The notes under the pieces were generated by a model, which made no database searches, was not told the DNA's origin, and saw only the letters and a program-made list of their open reading frames with translations. 64,000 nucleotides of DNA from the NCBI RefSeq assembly GCF_014852005.1, contig NZ_JACVAU010000001.1, forward strand, positions 766,001-830,000, read 5' to 3'. Position 1 is the stretch's first letter. Every line of letters starts with the position of its first letter. Position numbers and translations under genes: made by a program. The stretch is from Pseudoxanthomonas sp. PXM03 (GTDB lineage: Bacteria > Pseudomonadota > Gammaproteobacteria > Xanthomonadales > Xanthomonadaceae). Positions 52,529 to 64,000 of the stretch are shown here, piece after piece.

Positions 52529-54319
52529 ATGAACGCAGCGGTCGATGTTTTCAAACGCAACGATTTTCCGGGCAGTTCGCTTGCCGCGTTGAATGCCTGG
52601 GTTGCCGAGGTTGCCGCGCTCACCCAACCCGACCACATCCACTGGTGCGACGGCAGCGATGCCGAGAATGCGCTGCTGACCAAGCAGATGCTGGCCGACG
52701 GCACCCTGCTGCCGCTGAACCCCGAAACCCATCCGCACAGCTGGCTGCACCGCTCCAGCCCGAGCGACGTGGCACGCGTGGAGCACCTGACCTTCGTCTG
52801 CACGCCGCAGCAGGAAGACGCCGGCCCCAACAATCACTGGATGGCCCCGGCCGAGGCGCACGCGAAGATGGATGCGCTGTTCGCCGGCTGCATGCGTGGG
52901 CGCACGCTGTACGTGATCCCCTACTGCATGGGCCCGATCGATTCGCCGCTGTCGCGCTGCGGCGTGGAGATCACCGATTCGCCGTACGTGGTGGCCAACA
53001 TGCGCATCATGACCCGCATGGGCGCGGCCGCGCTGGCGCGCATCGAGCGCGAAGGCACGTTCGTGAAGGGCCTGCATTCCACCGGCGAGCTGGACCCGGA
53101 CCGCCGCTTCATCATGCATTTCCCCGACGAGCTGACCATCAAGAGCTTCGGCTCCGGTTACGGCGGCAACGCGCTGCTGGGCAAGAAGTGCCACGCGCTG
53201 CGCATCGCCTCTCACCAGGCGCGCAGTGAAGGTTGGCTGGCCGAGCACATGCTGATCGTCGGCATCGAGAATCCGCAGGGTGAGACGCATTACATCGCCG
53301 CCGCATTCCCGTCCGCGTGCGGCAAGACCAACCTGGCCATGCTGATTCCGCCGGAGGGCTATCGCCAGGCTGGCTGGAAGGTGTGGACGGTCGGCGACGA
53401 CATCTGCTGGATGCGCCCCGGCGCCGACGGCCGCCTGTACGCGATCAATCCGGAAGCCGGCTTCTTCGGCGTGGCGCCGGGCACCTCGGACAGTTCCAAC
53501 CCGAATGCGCTGGCCACCATCAGCCACCACACCATCTTCACCAACGTCGCCGTCACCGACGAGCAGGAGCCGTGGTGGGAAGGGCTGGACACGCGCACGC
53601 CGGCATTGGACTGGCAGGGGCGCAAGTACGACCCGGCCAACGGTCCGGCCGCGCACCCCAACTCGCGTTTCACCGTCTCCGCGCGCCAGTGCCCGAGCTA
53701 TTCGGCCAAGGCGGAGGATCCGCAGGGCGTGCCGATCAGCGCCATCGTCTTCGGCGGACGCCGCGCCTCGCTGGTGCCGCTGGTGTTCGAAGCGCGCGAC
53801 TGGACGCACGGCGTGCTGGTCGGCGCAGCGATGGGTTCTGAGACCACCGCCGCCGCGACCGGCGCGGTGGGCGTGATGCGCCGCGACCCGATGGCGATGA
53901 AGCCGTTCTGCGGCTACAACTTCGCCGACTACTTCGCGCACTGGCTGTCGTTCGACCAGGCCGGCGCGAAGCTTCCGAAGATCTTCCACGTCAACTGGTT
54001 CCGCAAGGGCGGCGCCGGCAAATTCCTGTGGCCCGGTTTCGGCGAAAACCTGCGCGTGCTGGAGTGGATGATCCAGCGTGTCGAGGGCAAGGCGGACGCG
54101 GTGGAAACGCCGATCGGCCACCTGCCGCGCGCCGAGGACCTGAATCTGGACGGTGTGGCACTGAGCGATGAAGCGCACGAGCTGCTGTTCGGTTTCGACC
54201 GCGCCGGCTGGCAGGCCGAGTTCACCAGCATCGGCGAGTACCTGCAGGAATTCGGCGACCGCACCCCGCAGGCGCTGAAGGACGAGCAGCAGCGCATCGC
54301 GGCCCGCCTGGCGCACTGA
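52529..54319 (+). CDS. pckG: Phosphoenolpyruvate carboxykinase (GTP)
   Basis: Converts oxaloacetate and GTP to PEP, CO2 and GDP, the entry to gluconeogenesis; cytoplasmic. 596 residues, the GTP-dependent family. Motifs: IPYCMGPIDSPLSRCGVEIT, FAGCMRGRTL, FPSACGKTNLAMLIPPEGYR (GTP P-loop with catalytic Cys), and FFGVAPGTSDSSNPNALATI. The GTP form is usual in xanthomonads, unlike the ATP enzyme of enteric bacteria. A TATCAT at 52496-52501 may be the -10 box. The palindromic array lies 150-530 bp upstream of the ATG and may influence transcription. A terminator follows. Confidence 0.97.
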   Translation: MNAAVDVFKRNDFPGSSLAALNAWVAEVAALTQPDHIHWCDGSDAENALLTKQMLADGTLLPLNPETHPHSWLHRSSPSDVARVEHLTFVCTPQQEDAGPNNHWMAPAEAHAKMDALFAGCMRGRTLYVIPYCMGPIDSPLSRCGVEITDSPYVVANMRIMTRMGAAALARIEREGTFVKGLHSTGELDPDRRFIMHFPDELTIKSFGSGYGGNALLGKKCHALRIASHQARSEGWLAEHMLIVGIENPQGETHYIAAAFPSACGKTNLAMLIPPEGYRQAGWKVWTVGDDICWMRPGADGRLYAINPEAGFFGVAPGTSDSSNPNALATISHHTIFTNVAVTDEQEPWWEGLDTRTPALDWQGRKYDPANGPAAHPNSRFTVSARQCPSYSAKAEDPQGVPISAIVFGGRRASLVPLVFEARDWTHGVLVGAAMGSETTAAATGAVGVMRRDPMAMKPFCGYNFADYFAHWLSFDQAGAKLPKIFHVNWFRKGGAGKFLWPGFGENLRVLEWMIQRVEGKADAVETPIGHLPRAEDLNLDGVALSDEAHELLFGFDRAGWQAEFTSIGEYLQEFGDRTPQALKDEQQRIAARLAH

Positions 54320-54697: not shown

Positions 54698-55288
54698 ATG
54701 CTGAATGCCGTGATCGAACCTTTCGCTGACAGCCTCGCCCCGGAGGCCACTGCCGCCCAGGACACCGCACTGGCCCGTTCTGCTGCGGGTGGCGACATGC
54801 GGGCGTTCGAGGCGCTTTACCGCCGCCATGCGGGTCGGGTGCATGGCGTCATCCAGCGGCTGGTGGGCGGGCAGGGCGTGCGGGCGGAAGACCTGACGCA
54901 GGAAGCGTTCGTGCGGGCGTGGCAGGCATTGCCGGCGTTCCGCTTCGAGAGTGCTTTCTCCACCTGGCTGCATCGCCTGGCGGTGACCACCGCGCTGATG
55001 GAACTGCGCAGCCGCCGCAGCGGTCCCCGCTTCGATGATGACGAGGACGCGCTGGACGACCTGGGCATGGCGGACAGCGCGGGCCATGGCACGGCGTTGT
55101 CGCTGGACCTGGAGCGCGCCGTCGCCACCTTGCCGCCACGGGCGCGCGCCGTGCTGGTGCTGTACGACGTGGAAGGCTGGAAGCACGAGGAGATCGCCAA
55201 CGAGCTGGGCATGGCGGTCGGAAGTTCAAAAGCACAGTTGCACCGGGCGCGGCACCTGCTGCGCGAGCGTTTAGGAGGACACGCATGA
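54698..55288 (+). CDS. ECF-family RNA polymerase sigma factor (RpoE-like)
   Basis: 196 residues. Region 2 (about 25-95) has FEALYRRHAGRVHGVIQRLV, EDLTQEAFVRAWQALPAFRF and FSTWLHRLAVTTALMELRSR. Region 4 (about 135-190) has ATLPPRARAVLVLYDVEGWK, HEEIANELGMAVGSSKAQLH and RARHLLRERL. Followed with a 4-base overlap by an anti-sigma-like gene and then a DUF4097 gene, so sigma, anti-sigma and envelope target form one operon. It is a separate paralogue of the ECF at 32498-33088. Confidence 0.88.
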   Translation: MLNAVIEPFADSLAPEATAAQDTALARSAAGGDMRAFEALYRRHAGRVHGVIQRLVGGQGVRAEDLTQEAFVRAWQALPAFRFESAFSTWLHRLAVTTALMELRSRRSGPRFDDDEDALDDLGMADSAGHGTALSLDLERAVATLPPRARAVLVLYDVEGWKHEEIANELGMAVGSSKAQLHRARHLLRERLGGHA

Positions 55289-55764
55289 CCCCCCACGATC
55301 CAACCCCGCTTTCAGACGACGCGCTGCGCTGGCAGCTGCGCGCACTGCGGCAGGACACGCCGCCCTCGCGCGATCTGTGGCCGGACCTGGCCGCGCGCCT
55401 GGCCGCCACGCCGCAGCAGGCCGTGGTACCGCCACGCCGCCGCATGGCGCCCTTTGCCCTGGCCGCGTCGGTGCTGCTGGCGGTCACGGTGACCTGGCAA
55501 CTGCAGAAAGCGCCGGAAGGCGACGCGCTGATCCAGCGCGAAGCCGCCGCGCTGACCCGTGATTACACCGGTGCGCTGGCGCAACTGGACACGCAGGTGC
55601 AGACCGTACCCGAGATCGCCCCCGCGCTGCATGCGCTGGACGAGAGCGCCGCGCAGATCCGCCACGCCATCGCCACCGAACCCAATGCGCACTTCCTGTT
55701 GAACCAGTTGCGCCGCACCTACGCACGACGCCTCGCGCTGACCCAGCGCGCGGCCATGACCTGA
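55285..55764 (+). CDS. Putative membrane anti-sigma factor
   Basis: 159 residues. An N-terminal cytoplasmic segment (LSDDALRWQLRALRQDTPPS, RDLWPDLAARLAATPQQ) precedes one transmembrane helix (MAPFALAASVLLAVTVTWQL, about residues 54-73) and a periplasmic helical part (REAAALTRDYTGALAQLDTQ). GGAGG eight bases upstream, and ATGA overlap with the sigma gene. No zinc-binding motif is seen. Function is inferred from topology and gene order. Confidence 0.7.
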   Translation: MTPHDPTPLSDDALRWQLRALRQDTPPSRDLWPDLAARLAATPQQAVVPPRRRMAPFALAASVLLAVTVTWQLQKAPEGDALIQREAAALTRDYTGALAQLDTQVQTVPEIAPALHALDESAAQIRHAIATEPNAHFLLNQLRRTYARRLALTQRAAMT

Positions 55765-55774
55765 GGAGTTACCC

Positions 55775-56674
55775 ATGCGTACCACCATCGCTTTCTCGCT
55801 GCTGCTGGGCAGCGCACTGTTGGCGCCCGCGGCGCTGGCGCAGACCGCCATCAATGAAACCCGGCCGCTGGACGCCCGTGGCCGGGTGGACATCAGCAAC
55901 CTCAAGGGCCGCATCGAAGTGCGCGGCTGGGAGCGCGACGAGGTGAAGATCACCGGCACCCTGGGCAAGGGCGTGGAGCGCCTGGAGGTGGACGGCGGCG
56001 GCCCGCACCTGAGCGTGGAAGTCCGCTACCCGAAGAGCAGCGGCTGGGGTGGCAACCAGACCGGACCGACCGACCTGGTGCTGATGGTGCCGTTGCGCGC
56101 CGACCTGGACATCGAGTCGGTCGCGGCCGACGTGCACGTGACCGGCGTTGCCTCGGGCGAACTTTCCATCAGCAGTGTCAGTGGCAGCGTGGCCGCCGCC
56201 GCCGCACCGCAGAAAGCGGACATCGAAACCGTCAGCGGCAGCGCCCACCTGACCCTCAACAGCGCGGACGTGGACGTGCAGACCGTCAGCGGCAACATCG
56301 TGCTGCGGGGACGGCTGAATGGCGACATCAGCACCGAGACGGTGTCCGGCCGCATCGAAGTCGCCGTTACCGGTGAAGAGATCCGCGATCTCAGCGCGAG
56401 CACCGTCAGCGGCACGGCGCATGTCAGTACGGCGCTGGCGCCCGGTGGCGAGATCAGCATGGAATCGGTCAGCGGCGACCTGCTGCTGCGCCTGCCGAAG
56501 GATGTGTCCGCGCAGGTCAGTGGCGAGAGCTTCAGCGGCAGCCTCAAGGCCACGGGCGTGGACATCGAGAAGCGCCGCGGCCCGGGTGCCAGTTTCTCCA
56601 CCCGCTACGGCAGCGGCAGTGCCCGCGTCACGGTGGAGACGTTCTCGGGCAGCGCGGAAGTGCGCGTGGAGTAA
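55775..56674 (+). CDS. DUF4097 exported beta-repeat protein
   Basis: 299 residues with signal peptide (MRTTIAFSLLLGSALLAPAA) and a mature domain of short beta-repeats carrying SVSGS/TVSGN turns (ISSVSGSVAA, DVQTVSGNIVL, ISTETVSGRIEVAV), typical of DUF4097/DUF4098 right-handed beta-helix proteins. GAGGAG precedes the ATG. It is third in the operon with ECF sigma and anti-sigma, 10 bases after the latter, so it may be an envelope protein under that sigma factor or feed its sensing. Confidence 0.8.
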   Translation: MRTTIAFSLLLGSALLAPAALAQTAINETRPLDARGRVDISNLKGRIEVRGWERDEVKITGTLGKGVERLEVDGGGPHLSVEVRYPKSSGWGGNQTGPTDLVLMVPLRADLDIESVAADVHVTGVASGELSISSVSGSVAAAAAPQKADIETVSGSAHLTLNSADVDVQTVSGNIVLRGRLNGDISTETVSGRIEVAVTGEEIRDLSASTVSGTAHVSTALAPGGEISMESVSGDLLLRLPKDVSAQVSGESFSGSLKATGVDIEKRRGPGASFSTRYGSGSARVTVETFSGSAEVRVE

Positions 56675-56744: not shown

Positions 56745-58040
56745 ATGACGAGTGCGGCATTCCACGTCCAGCAGGCGCGACGCCACCTGGCAACCGGCAA
56801 TGCCGCACACGCGCTGTCCGCGGCCGGGCAGGGGCTGGAAGTACATCCGCATGACCCGGACCTGCAATGGGTGGCCGCGCTCAGCCTGGTGGCACTGCAG
56901 CAACCTGCCGCCGCAGCCCGCCAACTTGAAGCGCTGGTGCACGCCCAACCCGACCATGGCGATGCCTGGCTGAAGCTGGGAGCCTGCCTGAAACGGCTGG
57001 ACGATCCGGTGGCCGCCGCTGCAGCGCTGCGGCGGGGCCTGGCGCTCATGCCGGAGGCGGCGCCGGCGCGGCTGCAGCTGGCCGAATGCCTGCAGCCGGG
57101 AGACCCGGATGCGGCGCTGGTGGAGTACTTCCGGGCCGTGACCACGGCGCAGGCGCAGGGGCGATGGCTCAATGATGCGACCACCGCGCCCGAGCTGCGG
57201 GAGCGGGTGAAGACCGCCATGCGGCTGATCGATGAAGGCCGGCACCGCCTGTTCTTCTCGGCCATCGCGCCACTGGAGCAACAGCACGGCGCACAGGCGC
57301 TGTCGCGGGTCACGCGCGCGCTGGAAGCCTATCTGGGCATCGCGCCGGGCGGCAGCCCGGACCCGCGCCAACGCCCCACGTTCCTGTACATCCCCGACCT
57401 GCAGCCCGAGCCCTATTTCGAGCGTGCATTGTTCCCGTGGTACGAAGCGCTGGAGCAGGCAACGGATGCGATCCGTGCCGAACTGCAGCAGGTGCTGCAG
57501 GTGCGCGACGGATTGCAGCCCTTCCTCGACTTCAGTGGCCCTGCGCGCAAGGACGATTTCCTGGCGAGCCGGCAGGACATCGACGCGGCCGCGTGGGATG
57601 CGTACTTCTTCCACCGCCACGGGCAGGCCTATCCCGAACACCTGGCTGCGTGTCCGGCCACCGCCCGGGCGCTGGCGCAGGTGCCGCTGACGCGCATCGA
57701 CGCGCACGCGCCGGAGGTGCTGTTCTCGCTGTTGTCACCGGGCACCCTGATCAAGCCGCACCATGGAGTGACCAACAGCCGCGTGGTCACCCACCTGCCG
57801 CTGATCGTGCCCGCGGACTGCGCGCTGGAAGTGGGCGGGGTGCAGCACGACTGGCAGGAAGGACGCTGCGTGACCTTCGACGACTCCTACCTGCACCAGG
57901 CCTGGAACCACAGCAGCCAGTTGCGCGTGGTGATGATCCTGGATACGTGGCATCCGCGCCTCAGACCCGAGGAAACCCAGGCGCTGAAACAGCTGGTGGA
58001 GGCCATCGGCGGATTCAACAGGCAGGCGGGCCTGGACTGA
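56745..58040 (+). CDS. TPR protein with C-terminal aspartyl/asparaginyl beta-hydroxylase domain
   Basis: 431 residues, no signal peptide. N-terminal TPR-like helices (about 5-135, e.g. HPDHGDAWLKLGACLKRLDD-type turns in QPDHGDAWLKLGACLKRL). The C-terminal domain (about 215-405) fits PF05118: PHHGVTNSRVVTHLPLIVPA (residues 338-357; metal His, Arg346, His350), then DCALEVGGVQHDWQEGRCVT, FDDSYLHQAWNHS (second metal His384) and MILDTWHP. Family members are 2OG/Fe(II) dioxygenases hydroxylating Asp or Asn, including peptide substrates. ATG 56745; longer frame upstream overlaps DUF4097. It converges with the 58049 gene with only 8 bp between stops. Confidence 0.85.
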   Translation: MTSAAFHVQQARRHLATGNAAHALSAAGQGLEVHPHDPDLQWVAALSLVALQQPAAAARQLEALVHAQPDHGDAWLKLGACLKRLDDPVAAAAALRRGLALMPEAAPARLQLAECLQPGDPDAALVEYFRAVTTAQAQGRWLNDATTAPELRERVKTAMRLIDEGRHRLFFSAIAPLEQQHGAQALSRVTRALEAYLGIAPGGSPDPRQRPTFLYIPDLQPEPYFERALFPWYEALEQATDAIRAELQQVLQVRDGLQPFLDFSGPARKDDFLASRQDIDAAAWDAYFFHRHGQAYPEHLAACPATARALAQVPLTRIDAHAPEVLFSLLSPGTLIKPHHGVTNSRVVTHLPLIVPADCALEVGGVQHDWQEGRCVTFDDSYLHQAWNHSSQLRVVMILDTWHPRLRPEETQALKQLVEAIGGFNRQAGLD

Positions 58041-58048
58041 TCGCTGCC

Positions 58049-58642
58049 TTACTCGTGCGTGTGCTCGGGGCTGCCGGGCTTGTCGAACAGCAGGTAAGTC
58101 GAAAGGATGTACTTGTCGTTCGAAACCGGTGCGTTGCCCACGTGCTGGAACATCCAGTACGGCGGGAACATCAGCAGCCGCCCCGCGCGTGGCTGCACGT
58201 CGACCTCCAGGTCCATGAAGCGGGTGCTGCCGCCTTCCTGTACGTCGTTGAGGTACCACAGGAACACCATGTAGCGCCCCGCGACCTCGTCGACGGAATC
58301 GAAATGCGGCTGGAAGCCGTCGCCAGCATTGGCGCGGTACTTCTTCATCGTCAGCCGGTCGATGCGCGGGCGCAACGGTACGGGCAGGGTCAGCGACAGG
58401 TCTGCGTTGTAGCGTGCCAGGGCTTCCTCGATGCGGGTCATGAAGAACCCGACGAAGGCGGGATCGGCCAGGCGGGTGAGATTCAACTCGGTCCAGCGGC
58501 TGTCGTCCAGCGCCGGCCGGTAGCCACGCCCGTTGGGCGCCTGGAATTGCGTGGAAGACTCGAAGCCGTCGATCAGCTGCTGGCAGAACGCTGCCGGCAG
58601 TGCGTCGTCGTAGATGCGGATGTAGTCGGCCAGCGCTTTCAT
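58049..58642 (-). CDS. 2OG-Fe(II) oxygenase (prolyl-4-hydroxylase type)
   Basis: 197 residues. The iron-binding triad is visible: His113 and Asp115 in FQPHFDSV, and His167 in MFQHVGNA, with Lys177 (NDKYILST) as the likely 2-oxoglutarate ligand. The N-terminal MKALADYIRIYDDALPAAFC and core MVFLWYLNDVQEGGSTRF match P4Hc-domain dioxygenases, which hydroxylate proline or other residues. ATG 58642. It lies four bases after the sulfotransferase gene and is therefore co-transcribed. Substrate is unknown. Confidence 0.85.
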   Translation of the reverse strand: MKALADYIRIYDDALPAAFCQQLIDGFESSTQFQAPNGRGYRPALDDSRWTELNLTRLADPAFVGFFMTRIEEALARYNADLSLTLPVPLRPRIDRLTMKKYRANAGDGFQPHFDSVDEVAGRYMVFLWYLNDVQEGGSTRFMDLEVDVQPRAGRLLMFPPYWMFQHVGNAPVSNDKYILSTYLLFDKPGSPEHTHE

Positions 58643-58646
58643 GGGG

Positions 58647-60473
58647 TCATCGTACGGTGAGGTCGTAGCCCCAGTGGTCGGCCACGGGTTGCAGGATGGG
58701 CAGCGCGGGGACCAGCCAGCGCGAATAGGGTTGCCAGCGGCCGACGGCGCGCGCATTGACCGGCTCCACCACCTGCGAATAGCTGGGCGTGCTGATGTAA
58801 CCCTTGCGCGCGGCGTGCTGGCTGAACTGCGCGAGGAAGTCGCGGTCCTGGATGCCCAGGAAGCTGCCGATGCGTTCCACCTGTGCGGGGAAATCGCCGA
58901 CGGTGTCCTCGTAGCGCAGCACCAGCGTGTCGGGCGCCAGCAATGCCTGGTGATGGATCCAGAACTTCATCGCATTGACGTAGCTTTTCGCCAGCCGCTC
59001 CAGGCTGGAGCACAGGACCATGAAGGCGGGTGAGCGGAAATTCTGCATGTAGCAGCTGAGCAGCACGTCGCAGGGGTGGCGCAGTGCCAGGATGATCTTT
59101 GCGTTGGGGAACAGGCGCAGGATCATCGGCAGGCGCAGCATGTTGAGCGGGTTCTTGTCGACCAGCTGCTGCCCGGGCTGCAGGGTGATGACCTTGGCGA
59201 CTTCGGACCAGTACACGGCGCGCAGCTCGTCGGTGGCCGCGCCATCGAGCATGTCCAGGCCATGCGGATACTCGACGCCACGCGCTTCCATCCGCTCGAT
59301 GCAGCGCTGCAGCGTGGCGCGTTCGTCCATCGAGGCGTAATGCGGGTGGGCGTCCAGCATCTGTTCCAGCATGGTGGTGCCGGAGCGCGGAAAGCCGACG
59401 ATGAAGACGGGGGAGTCAGCCGCTGACGGCGCGCGCGGGTCGTGGCGGAACGCGCCTTCGTCCGCAGTCAGCCATTTGCTGGACACCTTCAGCGGCTCAG
59501 CACCGGAATGCGCGATCTCCGGCACGACGTCAGCCGCAAGCCGGAACTGGATGGCGTGGACCTTCTCGAGGCAGGACATCGCATCGGCTGGTCGCCCCTG
59601 TTTGTCCGCGATGCTGGCGAGCGTGAACAAGGCCGTGGTCTCGGCCTGCACGTGCGGCGTGCGGTCCAGGATTGCATTCGATGCAGCCAGTGCCTGCGCG
59701 TAGTTCTTGTCGCGCATGGCGATGGCCGCCTGCAGTTGCAGCAGGTCGATGCGTTCATGCAGGTTCAGCGATTCAACACGATGTTCGAGCTGCGAGACCA
59801 ATTCCCTGGCGCGAGCGATGCGGTTGGTGCGTTCGAGCAACTGGGCGAGCCGCACGATCGTGCCGACGCTGTCGGAGTCGGCGGACAACAGCAGCCGTTC
59901 GGCATCGTCGGTCCGTCCGACCTGCATAAGGACCGTGGCAAGTTCGTGTTTGAGATCCGGCGGTAAGGCTAGCCATTCGCTTTCGCATGGGATCAACGCC
60001 GCTGCACGCTGCGCATCGCCGCATTCGAAGCAGGCAAGTGCGGCGTTGATGCGGGCTTCCGCCGACTCGGGCGCCAAGTCCACCGCGTCGAGGAAACGAT
60101 GCCTTGCCTCCCCCAGTCGCCCCATCTCCAACAGCAACAGGCCGTGATCGATGAGCAAGGACACGCGGCCCGGGTCGATCGCCACTGCACGCCGGTACGC
60201 GTGATCCGCCTTCTGGTAGTCACCCGCCATGCGTGCGGCAGCGCCGAGGTTGGCCCAATGCGCGAGCACCCCCGGATGCCTGGCCGCCATGCGTTCGTAT
60301 GCCGCAACCGCGCCGGAGAACTCCCCCTGTGCCTGCAGGACCATGCCCATGAGCGTCCACAGCGACGGATCCTCCGGCTGCTCCTCCAGGGCGGACCGGC
60401 ACAGCGTCAGCGCGGCCGCGTAGCGTCCGGACTCGTAGGCGTCAACGATGCTGGCGATGGAGCTGCGATTCAT
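58647..60473 (-). CDS. TPR-containing sulfotransferase
   Basis: 608 residues. TPR repeats cover about 1-330 (e.g. WTLMGMVLQAQGEFSGAVAA, WANLGAAARMAGDYQKADHA). The sulfotransferase domain spans 350-600, with the 5'-phosphosulfate-binding loop VFIVGFPRSGTTMLEQML (356-373) and the 3'-phosphate site ALRHPCDVLLSCYMQNF (463-479). Such enzymes transfer sulfate from PAPS; the combination of TPRs and sulfotransferase suggests a protein or peptide substrate. The gene starts 22 bases after the receptor's terminator hairpin and is followed by the P4H-type oxygenase gene. No good ribosome site is evident. Confidence 0.88.
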   Translation of the reverse strand: MNRSSIASIVDAYESGRYAAALTLCRSALEEQPEDPSLWTLMGMVLQAQGEFSGAVAAYERMAARHPGVLAHWANLGAAARMAGDYQKADHAYRRAVAIDPGRVSLLIDHGLLLLEMGRLGEARHRFLDAVDLAPESAEARINAALACFECGDAQRAAALIPCESEWLALPPDLKHELATVLMQVGRTDDAERLLLSADSDSVGTIVRLAQLLERTNRIARARELVSQLEHRVESLNLHERIDLLQLQAAIAMRDKNYAQALAASNAILDRTPHVQAETTALFTLASIADKQGRPADAMSCLEKVHAIQFRLAADVVPEIAHSGAEPLKVSSKWLTADEGAFRHDPRAPSAADSPVFIVGFPRSGTTMLEQMLDAHPHYASMDERATLQRCIERMEARGVEYPHGLDMLDGAATDELRAVYWSEVAKVITLQPGQQLVDKNPLNMLRLPMILRLFPNAKIILALRHPCDVLLSCYMQNFRSPAFMVLCSSLERLAKSYVNAMKFWIHHQALLAPDTLVLRYEDTVGDFPAQVERIGSFLGIQDRDFLAQFSQHAARKGYISTPSYSQVVEPVNARAVGRWQPYSRWLVPALPILQPVADHWGYDLTVR

Positions 60474-60494
60474 CCCGGAAGTATCGCAAACCGG

Positions 60495-60528
60495 TAAAGA
60501 AAAAGCCGCGCGGGGACACCGCGCGGCT
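60495..60528 (-). terminator. Strong hairpin between receptor and sulfotransferase genes
   Basis: Minus-strand stem gccgcgcgg / ccgcgcggc with a 5-base loop, followed by TTTTTCTTT. It lies 27 bases past the receptor stop and 22 bases before the next ATG. There is no room for a separate promoter after it, so read-through or a promoter inside the receptor gene must feed the downstream genes. Confidence 0.9.
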
Positions 60529-60554
60529 CAAGTACACGAAAGTGCAATCTAGAC

Positions 60555-63425
60555 TCAGAAGTTCATCGTATAGCGGGCCCACAGGTAGCGGCCGACCGTA
60601 TCGAACGTGTTGACGTCGGTGTTCGCATTGAGCACGTTGTTCTGGTACATCATCTGCGGCTGCTTGTCGAACACGTTGTCGAGGCCGACCTCGACCTTGG
60701 AGTTCCACCACGGCAGGTTGTAGCTGGCGCTGATGGCGTGGGTCAGGTAGTCGTCGAAGTCCACCGAGTAGCAGTACTCGGGGCTGTCGGCGCTGCAACC
60801 GCCGTCCGCACTGGCGATCTCGAAGCCGCTGACGTAACGCGTGCGCCAGGAAACGCCGAAGTCACCCTTCTGCCAGTTGACGAAGGTACGGGCGCGGACG
60901 CGCGAGTAGTTGCCGTACGACTTGTTGTACGTACCGGCGAGGCTCACGACCGTATCGGTGTCATCCAGCGGGTTCACGTCATTGTCGTACTGCGCGATGT
61001 ACGTCGCGTCCATGCCGAGCACCCAGCTGCCCCACGCGGTGTCGGGCAGGCGGTAGCGCAGCGCCAGGTCCCAGCCCTTCGTGTCCAGGCGGCCAAGGTT
61101 CACGATCGGCTCGCGGATGAAGTCGACCTGGCCATTGGAACGGCGATTGATGAAGTCGCAGAACGGGTGGCTGTCGTTGCTGAAGCAGGTGTTCACCACA
61201 GTCTGCGCGTCAGCGCGGGTGATGGTCTCGTTGAGGTAGAGGCGCCAGTAGTCCAGGCTGACCGAGAAGCCCGGCAGGAACTCCGGATCGTAGACCGCGC
61301 CCCAGGAGAACGACTTGCCTTCTTCCGGCTGCAGGTCGAAGCCGGCGGCCACGGAGCCGGACCACACGCCGTTGGTCTGGGACGTCGGGGCAGCACCGAT
61401 ACCGGTGGTGGGGATGTTGGTCGCACCGGCACCCGCACCACACGCGTTCTCGTGGTTGCGCGGTGCGCCGGTGGCGCCGTAGCCCTGGCAGGGGTCGTCC
61501 AGCTGCGGAGAGTCGCCCTGCGGACCGGCGTACAGATCCTGGATGCGCGGCGCACGGAAGACTTCGGCCACCGTGCCGCGGAACAGCAGGTTCTCGATCG
61601 GACGCCATTCCACCTGCAGCTTGCTGTTGGTGGTGTCGCCGAAGGTGCTGTAGTCGGAGTAGCGGCTGCCGATGCTGACCGACAGCAGGTGCGCGAACGG
61701 CATCTCCGAAAGGATCGGGACGTACAGTTCGCCGTACACCTCGGAAACATCGAACTTGCCGGACAGCGCCGAGCTACAGGCTTCCTGCGAGATGAAGCAG
61801 CGGCCTTCCTCGTTGGCGATGGCGATGTAGTCGACTTCGCTGCGCTGGTACTCCTCGCGCCACGAAGCACCGAAGGCCAGCTGCACGGCGCCGGCCGGCA
61901 GGTTGAACAACTCGCCACTCGCGTTGGCTTCGAAGCTGCGGTTCTGGCGCATGGTCGAGTAGTACGGACGTGCTTCGTACTGGCTCAGCGTCGCGATGGT
62001 CTGCGGGTCATCGATGTTGAAGATGTTCAGCGGCGTGCAGCCGGCGATGATGGCACCCGGGGCGCCGCACTTGACCACGCCGTCGGTGTCCAGGAACGAC
62101 GGACCCAGTGCATCGGCCAGGCCCGCGTAGTACACGTAGCCGTAGCTCGTGTTCTCGCTCAGGTAGTGGCCATAGTTGAACGCAGCGTCCCACTTCCAGG
62201 TTTCGCCGACGAAGCCTTCCAGGCCTGCGACGACCTGCGAGGTGGTGGTGTCGTAATAGGAGCGACGCTGGCCCAGCGAAGTGAAGCGCGTCAGGAACAG
62301 GTTGTCATCGGTGGCGCTGACCGGCCCGAAGTTCACACCGAACGGGTTGTAGTAGTTGTCGGCGGAGATGACGACGCCGTCGGACGAGGTGTCGAACGGC
62401 AGCGCGGCGATCGCGAAGTTCGACGAAGTCTTGTTGTGGTAGACCTCGGCAAATGCGTTCAGGTTGTCCGTGATCTGGTAGTTCGCCAGGAAGAACGCAT
62501 TGGTGCGCTCCTGCGGCGTCATGATCAGGTTGGTGGCCTGGTAGTTGTACGAGTCGGTCGAACCCGTGTAGCAGCGATAATCGTCGGTGGTGTCGCCGGC
62601 AGCACCGGGGATGCGGGTGACGTTGTCGCAGCCGTACTGTGCGATCAGCGGGCTGCCTTCCGGGAAGAAGATGCGACCACGCGGAGCGCGGCTCGAACCA
62701 GCGACAGAGACCGCACCGCTGTACAGGTAGGTCGCGTCCTTCGAGAAATCACGGTCAGCCGAAGAGATGCCATCGAACTTGTTGTAGTTCAGGCCGGCAA
62801 TGATGTTGCCCTTCTCGCCCACCTGGCCGAAGGTCACCGAACCGCCGCTGCGCTGGCCGTCCTGGTGGCTGGGGGTCATGCCGAAGTCGACCGATGCGGT
62901 CAGGCCTTCGAAATCGCGGCGCAGGATGAAGTTGACCACGCCTGCGACGGCATCGGAGCCGTACACGGCCGAGGCACCGCTCATCAGCACTTCGATGCGC
63001 TCGACGGCCGAGGACGGAATGGAGTTGAGGTCGTTGTTGACGATGCGGCGGCCGTTGACCAGCAGCAGGGTGCGCTCGGAACCCAGGCCGCGCAGTTCCA
63101 CGGTGGACGAGCCGTCGCCACCGCCATTGTTGACCTGCGGGTTGGTGGCGGCGCCGGAAACGGCGGGCAGTTCCTGGATCAGATCGCCCAGCGTCAGCTT
63201 GCCGGTCTGTTCGATGGCGGCGCGGTCGATGATCACGACCGGGCTGGCGGTCTCGGTTTCAACGCGGGCAACGCGCGAACCGGTGACCTGGATGGCGTCC
63301 AGGGTCTTGGCGCCTTCGGTGGTGGATTCCTGTGCGAACGCGAGGCCGGTGCCGGCAGCGCTGGTCGCACCCACTGCGAGGACGAAGCCGATGGCTTCGC
63401 GCAGCTTGGTGGTCTTGAAGTTCAT
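60555..63425 (-). CDS. Large TonB-dependent receptor of modification cluster
   Basis: Outer-membrane receptor of 956 residues. Signal peptide (MNFKTTKLREAIGFVLAVGA) followed by TonB-box-like KTLDAIQVTGSRV, plug (LLLVNGRRIVNNDLNSIPSS; IEVLMSGASAVYGSDAVAGV) and a large barrel ending in Phe (LWARYTMNF). Six close cysteine pairs occur in the barrel region (e.g. KCGAPGAIIAGC, RCFISQEAC, TCFSNDSHPFC, GCSADSPEYC), suggesting disulfide-stabilised loops. GGAGAGAG precedes the ATG. Ligand is unknown; the neighbouring modifying enzymes suggest a peptide or modified organic substrate, which is speculative. Confidence 0.9.
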   Translation of the reverse strand: MNFKTTKLREAIGFVLAVGATSAAGTGLAFAQESTTEGAKTLDAIQVTGSRVARVETETASPVVIIDRAAIEQTGKLTLGDLIQELPAVSGAATNPQVNNGGGDGSSTVELRGLGSERTLLLVNGRRIVNNDLNSIPSSAVERIEVLMSGASAVYGSDAVAGVVNFILRRDFEGLTASVDFGMTPSHQDGQRSGGSVTFGQVGEKGNIIAGLNYNKFDGISSADRDFSKDATYLYSGAVSVAGSSRAPRGRIFFPEGSPLIAQYGCDNVTRIPGAAGDTTDDYRCYTGSTDSYNYQATNLIMTPQERTNAFFLANYQITDNLNAFAEVYHNKTSSNFAIAALPFDTSSDGVVISADNYYNPFGVNFGPVSATDDNLFLTRFTSLGQRRSYYDTTTSQVVAGLEGFVGETWKWDAAFNYGHYLSENTSYGYVYYAGLADALGPSFLDTDGVVKCGAPGAIIAGCTPLNIFNIDDPQTIATLSQYEARPYYSTMRQNRSFEANASGELFNLPAGAVQLAFGASWREEYQRSEVDYIAIANEEGRCFISQEACSSALSGKFDVSEVYGELYVPILSEMPFAHLLSVSIGSRYSDYSTFGDTTNSKLQVEWRPIENLLFRGTVAEVFRAPRIQDLYAGPQGDSPQLDDPCQGYGATGAPRNHENACGAGAGATNIPTTGIGAAPTSQTNGVWSGSVAAGFDLQPEEGKSFSWGAVYDPEFLPGFSVSLDYWRLYLNETITRADAQTVVNTCFSNDSHPFCDFINRRSNGQVDFIREPIVNLGRLDTKGWDLALRYRLPDTAWGSWVLGMDATYIAQYDNDVNPLDDTDTVVSLAGTYNKSYGNYSRVRARTFVNWQKGDFGVSWRTRYVSGFEIASADGGCSADSPEYCYSVDFDDYLTHAISASYNLPWWNSKVEVGLDNVFDKQPQMMYQNNVLNANTDVNTFDTVGRYLWARYTMNF

Positions 63426-63509
63426 TCTCTCTCCAGATGAGGTCTGTTACGCCCTAGGGATACCCGGCTGGCAAGCCAAATACGGCTACCAAAATGCTGG
63501 GGTGACCCG

Positions 63510-63515
63510 ATCATA
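63510..63515 (-). promoter_or_regulatory. Candidate -10 box of the receptor promoter
   Basis: TATGAT on the minus strand, about 85 bases upstream of the receptor ATG, with only a poor -35 candidate (TTTAAT, 63533-63538). The surrounding 63426-63638 is gene-free and comparatively AT-rich; no Fur box is seen. Confidence 0.45.
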
Positions 63516-63638
63516 GACGCGCGGCCGGGAGAATTAAAGAGTCGTTAAGGCGCTTTGGCAGGCCCGGGCGGGAGAAATTTCCATTTCCCTCTATTCATGC
63601 GCGTGATGAACGGGTGAAAGCCCCAGATTCGGCGGGGA

Positions 63639-64000
63639 TCAGGTGGGGATGACGTCGAACGCCAGGCTGATGCGCGCGGTGGGGCCGCTGTAGGGGACGG
63701 TGTGGTGGAAGAAGTACGAAGGGAAAAGCAGCACTTCACCTGTGCGGGGAACGTGCTGGAGGCTGCGGGGAGGCGCGCTCCGGGCAAACTCGGGCTGCGG
63801 ATGCCCGAACACGATGGCACCACTGTCCGTCGCCGTGGGCTGGCCCGCATCCAGATAGAAGACGCCACTCATCCAGCCGGCCGGATGGATATGGGGCGTC
63901 TGGTGGCCTCCTTCGTGCAGAACGGTGGCCCACATCTGCAAGCGCCAGCGCCGGGGCATGGCAAGCCGCCAGGGATGCGTTGCCAGCCCGGGATTGGCGG
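63639..64000 (-). CDS. Putative 2OG-Fe(II) oxygenase, C-terminal part (PF13759-like), truncated by window edge
   Basis: Open on the minus strand from the right edge to a TGA at 63639; about 120 residues are visible and the N-terminus lies beyond base 64000. The visible part has THPWRLAMPRRWRLQMWATV, then TVLHEGGHQTPHIHPAGWMS (metal HxH region), GVFYLDAGQP, LLFPSYFFHHTVPYSG (second metal His) and the end RISLAFDVIPT. This matches the family usually called putative 2OG-Fe(II) oxygenase, often fused to TPRs. It is on the same strand as, and upstream of, the receptor, so it may be part of the same locus. Confidence 0.8.
   Translation of the reverse strand, partial: ANPGLATHPWRLAMPRRWRLQMWATVLHEGGHQTPHIHPAGWMSGVFYLDAGQPTATDSGAIVFGHPQPEFARSAPPRSLQHVPRTGEVLLFPSYFFHHTVPYSGPTARISLAFDVIPT

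Follow-up and report, generated by a model that had tools for sequence, protein, structure and literature searches.

A TonB-dependent receptor cluster with putative protein-modifying enzymes at a cassette-exchange hot spot of Lysobacteraceae

Results

Gene content of the cluster

The window analysed here is a 64,000-nucleotide stretch of a contig of Pseudoxanthomonas sp. PXM03 (positions 766001-830000; genome 4.03 Mb). It ends inside a cluster of receptor and enzyme genes that extends 8.6 kb past the window end, as read from a continuation of the same contig (L003, positions 820001-840000; L003 coordinate = window coordinate - 54000). On the minus strand the genes follow the order receptor 2, PF13759 oxygenase, methyltransferase, TPR-GT41 glycosyltransferase, TPR-PF13759 oxygenase, receptor 1, TPR-sulfotransferase and P4H-like oxygenase, with hslO and an XOO1806-family gene preceding receptor 2.

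At one end lies a plus-strand gene (56745..58040; start codon read) for TPR-AspH, which combines TPR with an aspartyl/asparaginyl beta-hydroxylase domain (PF05118, 141 bits) and converges on the minus-strand genes. The P4H-like 2OG-Fe(II) oxygenase gene (58049..58642, minus strand; PF13640, 39.8 bits; start codon read) begins 4 bp past the stop of the TPR-sulfotransferase gene (58647..60473, minus strand; PF13469, 127.8 bits), whose product has a TPST-like catalytic domain. Receptor 1, a TonB-dependent receptor of 956 aa (60555..63425, minus strand), matches PF07715 (79.4 bits) and PF00593 (103 bits). Directly after it, a pattern scan located a terminator-like hairpin of 11 pairs (60503..60529, minus strand; L003 6529-6503), so the sulfotransferase and P4H-like genes may be expressed below the receptor; such sites are not enriched in the region as a whole (8 versus a shuffle mean of 9.2). 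The TPR-PF13759 oxygenase gene is truncated by the window end (63639..64000, minus strand; PF13759, 78 bits) and is whole in the continuation (L003 9639-11027; 462 aa; PF13759, 73.9 bits).

The remaining minus-strand genes encode an OGT-like TPR-GT41 glycosyltransferase (L003 11073-13019; PF13844, 181 bits), a methyltransferase (L003 13016-14026), a second, short PF13759 oxygenase (L003 13996-14730) and TonB receptor 2 (L003 14812-17484; PF07715 and PF00593 above cut-off). Beyond them lie the gene for the small XOO1806-family protein (L003 17777-18646; NF052276, 416.6 bits, cut-off 280) and hslO (L003 18759-19748). The far border is flanked on the plus strand by genes for PEPCK (52529-54319), an ECF-type sigma factor (54698-55288), an unnamed 159-aa product (55285-55764) and a DUF4097 protein (55775-56674), as read with Pfam.

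Pfam thus places a receptor beside PF13759, TPR-sulfotransferase, P4H and TPR-AspH enzymes, as an earlier sequence-only reading of the window had described, with the window end cutting the cluster. The same reading credited three of the four enzymes with TPR domains, either in themselves or as common in relatives, which agrees with strong matches in the sulfotransferase and PF13759 proteins, weak ones near the cut-offs in TPR-AspH and none in the P4H-like protein. By eye, with no predictor, signal peptides are present on both receptors and on none of the enzymes. The PXM03 genome holds only two PF13759 genes, both inside the cluster. Together with the recurrence of the gene combination in relatives and its absence from random regions, this places the combination beyond chance. 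The closest match to one cluster protein among named genomes is in Pseudoxanthomonas sp. 3HH-4 (98% identity), an environmental strain whose genes follow the same order (L084).

The cluster is compact: the methyltransferase gene overlaps both neighbours and the remaining intergenic gaps are 4-292 bp, with no precursor gene recognised in them. Neither a short precursor of RiPP or Rax type (at least 40 aa, non-overlapping) nor an exporter was recognised in the cluster. When predicted genes of at least 40 aa were clustered over 141 loci, one short family emerged (45-70 aa, 7 loci), lying outside the cluster. Because of the small gaps and this clustering, a separate precursor gene in the PXM03 locus, of at least 40 aa and not overlapping another gene, seems unlikely.

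Relationship of the enzymes to known families

Compared with solved structures by sequence, the catalytic domains are closest to protein-modifying enzymes, namely TPST, AspH, prolyl 4-hydroxylase and OGT, in keeping with the side-chain-modifying families proposed from sequence alone; modification of protein substrates in PXM03 is a prediction from this kinship. The best solved matches of the sulfotransferase domain are tyrosylprotein sulfotransferases (8w5z, E 3.9e-16), others being weaker. Its residues 1-249 align to the tick and human enzymes across the whole catalytic domain, and the catalytic glutamate and lysine of TPST line up. TPR-AspH finds human AspH as its best solved match (5apa, E 9.5e-23), with the two iron-binding histidines and the 2OG-binding arginine aligned. 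In NCBIfam it scores highest with OlsC (101.2 bits; curated cut-off 450) and LpxO (62.4 bits; curated cut-off 500).

The P4H-like protein matches prolyl 4-hydroxylases best among solved structures, weakly (E 2e-5); an H-x-D...H...K set is visible by eye, but the weak HMMER alignment to a solved P4H puts the motif elsewhere. TPR-GT41 matches the solved structures of human OGT (E 1.7e-74) and XcOGT (E 4.5e-56). It is not of the N-glycosyltransferase subtype, as the NGT model gives 30 bits against a cut-off of 1000 and OGT-type structures match far better.

PF13759 is labelled a putative 2OG-Fe(II) oxygenase in Pfam and TIGR02466 in NCBIfam. The short PF13759 protein had no match among solved structures in a single-sequence search, while a profile search hit two structures, 3bvc and 2rg4, both uncharacterised. 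Eight aligned short PF13759 proteins share, without variation, an H-x-H pair, a distal H and an R, which may represent the iron and 2OG ligands.

A further family, of about 350 aa, occurs in 15 loci, and the one member scanned has no Pfam match. Because its model (pLDDT 88.5) matches human TPST-1 first (E 6.9e-6; TM 0.41 and 0.51; rmsd 6.5), the family is probably a divergent sulfotransferase. The predicted structure of the XOO1806 protein is of low confidence (pLDDT 62) and at most hints at a beta barrel.

Conserved linkage of receptor and enzymes

Of 150 genomes surveyed in the order, 75 carry PF13759; at phylum level, 15 of 120 do. Neighbourhoods were scored with profiles built up from the proteins of the cluster, a subfamily receptor being defined by more than 500 bits. 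The order set (L003-L063) comprises L003 and 60 neighbourhoods of up to 20 kb, part of about 130 matches listed; 32 of its 61 members have a subfamily receptor and 29 a receptor with another enzyme. The named set (L084-L163), from a scan anchored on the short PF13759 protein, covers the best 80 of 248 relatives, of which 55 have a subfamily receptor, 47 a receptor with another enzyme and 60, by looser criteria, a receptor frame; the 20 in which a receptor was not seen are 12 short stretches and 8 of at least 20 kb. Among these best 80 of 248, the sulfotransferase occurs in 44 loci, the P4H-like protein in 35, XOO1806 in 27, the methyltransferase in 16, OGT in 14 and AspH in 7. Many loci are cut at contig or stretch ends, so these enzyme sets are lower bounds.

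Random 20-kb regions gave a receptor with an enzyme in 0 of 19 (20 were drawn, and L201 was left out for its overlap with the linked locus L060). Fisher tests against these regions yield p 8e-7 for the named and 6e-5 for the order set, which share genomes, with at least six contigs in common. L222 (same organism as L145) and L223 (same contig as L098) were left out of the counts; the L098 stretch ends just before OGT and the methyltransferase, and both were scored from L223. The sequence-only reading had named conserved linkage in advance as its test, and the frequencies (47/80 and 29/61 versus 0/19) do not refute that reading. The association of receptor and enzymes is thus well supported.

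Within PXM03, 20 further regions, 18 chosen for receptors and 2 for paralogous enzymes, showed a receptor with an enzyme in one (L064). There, a PF05118 domain is fused to a sulfotransferase domain directly behind the receptor, an arrangement that suggests hydroxylation and sulfation of one substrate. We examined whether such fusions could serve as proof and discarded the idea: among 15 fetched candidate regions (L164-L178), a full-length receptor adjoins one, L164, where the two domains occupy separate reading frames. Three regions of same-family genomes chosen for TPR-AspH (L181-L183) all also contain a receptor and a sulfotransferase. Outside the order, a receptor was present in one of four regions read, adjoining a TPR-PF13759 gene in another order of the class (L224); the other three, from two other genomes, had none. 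In two loci (L104 and L110), six sulfotransferase frames each lie beside PF13759 and a receptor, both receptors being cut by the contig end.

The receptor subfamily

A tree built from 122 receptors groups 93 of the 94 linked receptors, meaning those from PF13759 neighbourhoods, with both cluster receptors in one superclade (support 0.98), which also takes in 5 of the 19 other PXM03 receptors (20 minus one duplicate, receptor 1 itself). Comparison of receptor composition with enzyme set (Ser, Thr, Asn, Tyr, Pro, Asp, Cys, sequons and acidic tyrosines) gave no clear fingerprint. On average, the 41 enzyme-bearing receptors hold 3.3 acidic tyrosines and the 5 enzyme-free ones 1.6, but these receptors are too few and too nested for the difference to carry weight. 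When receptor 2 was searched for an unusual loop motif by conservation, only structural-looking positions stood out. The signal-peptide motif K-L-R-x-A-I was considered as a recognition element and set aside: many linked receptors carry it, but other PXM03 receptors, for example that of L076, begin in a similar way. The C-terminal motif P-Y-x-R-Y-x-Q of XOO1806 is common to some receptors and is possibly an assembly signal.

A hot spot beyond hslO and XOO1806

The PXM03 cluster is bordered by hslO and PEPCK, and PEPCK borders the site in relatives too. The two genes were located in 19 genomes (PEPCK in 8), and 20 regions from 18 of them were read. Where hslO is visible, XOO1806 is no more than 1.5 kb away in 17 of 17 read regions and in 24 of 25 named loci, and likewise in PXM03. 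Five regions (L208-L211 and L215) have a receptor without enzymes, with a TetR gene directly behind it; in four (L206, L213, L217 and L218) no subfamily receptor was found in the stretch covered, the far border lying outside it; others have receptors with varied enzyme sets. Hot-spot loci, those where hslO or PEPCK was seen, make up 35 of the 80 named loci. All 35 have a receptor, and they display nine enzyme combinations, each of them a lower bound because some stretches end early. Off the hot spot, a receptor occurs in 25 of 45 named loci.

The content of the site differs between congeners. At the hot spot of the same-genus genome G031, which lacks PF13759, stand four Oar-like proteins and two TPR-sulfotransferases; one Oar-like protein scanned matches PF25183, PF13620 and, weakly, PF07715. 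The sulfotransferase is thus found with a second class of TonB-type outer-membrane proteins as well. G022 and G039 share a genus, one having a receptor, OGT, methyltransferase and oxygenase (L220), the other another receptor and no enzyme (L209). These observations support well the view that, in Lysobacteraceae, receptors and enzymes are exchanged as cassettes at one hot spot.

Parsimony changes of enzyme presence were counted for 37 hot-spot loci on trees of hslO, XOO1806 and the hslO-nearest receptor; the far border is also visible in 27 of them. OGT (11/37 loci) requires 7 changes on the hslO, 8 on the XOO1806 and 1 on the receptor tree, the last against a minimum of 6 among 1000 shuffles, and the 11 OGT loci form a single receptor clade (support 0.995). 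The methyltransferase (13/37 loci) requires 6, 7 and 1 changes. In the 27 loci with both borders, each of the two needs 3, 4 and 1. For the other types the changes on the hslO, XOO1806 and receptor trees are 5/5/5 (OX5, a PF13759 type), 4/4/4 (sulfotransferase), 5/5/4 (ST2), 5/5/4 (AspH) and 6/6/8 (P4H). Only OGT and the methyltransferase thus clearly follow the receptor, and P4H fits the receptor tree worse than the hslO tree (8 versus 6). From these counts, receptor, OGT and methyltransferase move together, with the break between XOO1806 and the receptor. Off the hot spot, OGT also occurs with a receptor of another clade (L159).

Discussion

The gene content, the family identities, the conserved linkage, the exchange of cassettes at one site and the pairing of OGT and methyltransferase with receptor clades are observed, and they may be read as signs of a cassette of receptors and their modifiers. 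We give an even chance to a mechanism in which cytosolic enzymes would act on the receptor precursor while it is still unfolded, ahead of Sec export. The TPR domains of several enzymes would bind peptide of the precursor; the 2OG oxygenases, two of PF13759, one P4H-like and one AspH-like, would hydroxylate its side chains; and the TPST-like sulfotransferase, the GT41 enzyme and the methyltransferase would modify hydroxyls or other groups. Receptors would then arrive decorated at the outer membrane, probably on surface loops, and the benefit could be tuning of ligand use or escape from phages and bacteriocins. Modification in the cytosol is favoured by analogy with HMW1C; the receptor as substrate, the timing, the reaction order, the site on the receptor and the benefit are what we infer. 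A further proposal, which we hold only tentatively and would sooner doubt, is that outer-membrane receptors of Lysobacteraceae bear a combinatorial code of hydroxyl, sulfate, sugar and methyl groups set by cytosolic enzymes of the cassette, and that receptor and code are swapped as a unit at hslO-XOO1806, changing ligand choice or evading phages and bacteriocins.

The sequence-only reading had offered a peptide, the receptor or a ligand as substrate. A separate precursor peptide has lost ground, none of at least 40 aa having been found; we favour the receptor chain, with an imported or recovered ligand as its main rival. In favour of the receptor count the linkage frequencies, also off the hot spot, the single superclade, the match of OGT and methyltransferase to the receptor tree, the congeneric pair with unlike cassettes, the protein-modifying kin of the enzymes and their lack of visible signal peptides. 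The five enzyme-free hot-spot receptors, the receptor-less PF13759 loci, the lack of a composition fingerprint, the enzyme types that do not track the receptor tree and the single receptor among four regions outside the order speak against the receptor. Synthesis and uptake genes for one molecule are often neighbours, and the linkage might accordingly reflect a shared molecule, such as a peptide or siderophore, made or imported via the receptor and acted on by the enzymes; enzyme-free receptors and receptor-free PF13759 loci are equally compatible with sharing of a molecule and of a protein. We judge this rather unlikely: a precursor gene, a peptide synthetase or an exporter was not recognised in the PXM03 cluster, and protein-modifying enzymes are the best matches of the sulfotransferase, GT41 and AspH domains, which a peptide would fit too. 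For a shared molecule, RaxST sets a precedent, as a xanthomonad sulfotransferase reported to act on a peptide that is secreted.

A role of the enzymes in modifying lipids or surface polysaccharide, like that of LpxO and OlsC of the PF05118 family, with receptors adjacent for another reason such as shared regulation, appears very improbable. The best NCBIfam models of the PF05118 protein are of this kind, but their scores fall far under the curated cut-offs, its best solved match is human AspH, and known relatives of the TPR-GT41 and TPST-like domains have protein substrates. Hardly more probable is that the hot spot gathers unrelated accessory genes and that the linkage stems from the shared ancestry of one island and recombination, with no functional coupling. 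Neighbours can move jointly without coupling, physical linkage alone could account for the co-movement of OGT and receptor, a single site accounts for 35 of the 80 named loci, and only two of seven enzyme types clearly track the receptor tree; against this, the combination is also seen away from the hot spot (receptor in 25/45 named loci), and the receptors come from one superclade.

If receptors are decorated, their specificity, phage adsorption and nutrient uptake could not be read from the receptor gene alone, and bacteria would possess a protein-modification system of several chemistries whose parts are kin to human AspH, TPST, P4H and OGT. The hot spot supplies close relatives with and without given enzymes, which makes the substrate question directly testable, and PF13759, a putative 2OG-Fe(II) oxygenase family, gains a testable context.

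Text searches of the open literature listed no paper on TonB receptors with this enzyme set or so modified. In xanthomonads and caulobacters, TonB receptors also lie in loci that encode SapC, tryptophan halogenase and Pass1-type proteins. Receptors there likewise adjoin oxygenase-type enzymes, but of other families, and no open-literature match was found for such loci with a sulfotransferase. Human AspH, TPST, prolyl 4-hydroxylase and OGT share their catalytic families with the PXM03 enzymes, and AspH and OGT also the layout of TPR plus catalytic domain; the PXM03 enzymes differ in being bacterial and in lying in one locus with TonB receptors, with substrates that are presumed. RaxST of Xanthomonas is reported to be a tyrosylprotein-type sulfotransferase acting on RaxX, a gene product for export. 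The PXM03 enzyme is of the same type and from the same bacterial family. RaxX, however, is a short peptide served by exporter genes of its own, whereas neither a precursor nor an exporter was recognised in the PXM03 cluster, and the PXM03 sulfotransferase has TPR. HMW1C of Haemophilus is a GT41 enzyme without a signal sequence that stays cytoplasmic and is required there for HMW1 glycosylation (PMC3012730). PXM03 similarly has a GT41 gene, with no signal peptide by eye, beside surface-protein genes. Its enzyme, however, is a TPR-GT41, closer to OGT and accompanied by oxygenases, a sulfotransferase and a methyltransferase, and the neighbouring surface protein is a TonB receptor, a putative substrate. 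Cytosolic modification of an exported surface protein is the known kind of system to which the proposed PXM03 cassette would belong.

The superclade, the receptor-tree group that holds nearly all enzyme-linked TonB receptors, is also represented elsewhere in the PXM03 genome, on contig 3 at about 538-543 kb (L064 9073-14032). Here, a superclade receptor is directly followed by the gene for a 697-aa fusion protein, in which a PF05118 domain (56.9 bits) and a PF13469 sulfotransferase domain (97.7 bits) are joined in one chain.

Between PEPCK and the cluster lie genes for an ECF-type sigma factor, an unnamed product and a DUF4097 protein (window 54698-56674); homologues of the sigma factor and the DUF4097 protein sit between the enzyme genes in certain Lysobacter loci (L122, L124). 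An XOO1806-family gene (L003 17777-18646, on contig 3) adjoins hslO in all 17 hslO-showing regions among those read at hslO/PEPCK sites and in 24 of the 25 named PF13759 loci showing hslO. Strands are predicted in its product, whose C-terminal P-Y-V-R-Y-x-Q-D-L motif recurs in part of the receptors.

The hot spot of a genome of the same genus, G031, which is without PF13759, encodes four Oar-like proteins and two TPR-sulfotransferases (L204 204-16584). L104 and L110 each carry six sulfotransferase frames within about 14 kb, alongside PF13759 and a receptor truncated by the contig end. Four loci from gammaproteobacterial MAGs, some of them marine (L102, L103, L107, L108), have a P4H-like gene beside PF13759 and no receptor; L103 and L108 also contain putative patatin-type, L,D-transpeptidase-like and amidase genes, judged by eye.

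A family of about 350 aa (L043 11921-12976 and 14 other loci) has no Pfam match. It is predicted to adopt a sulfotransferase fold, and the top solved match to its predicted structure is TPST-1.
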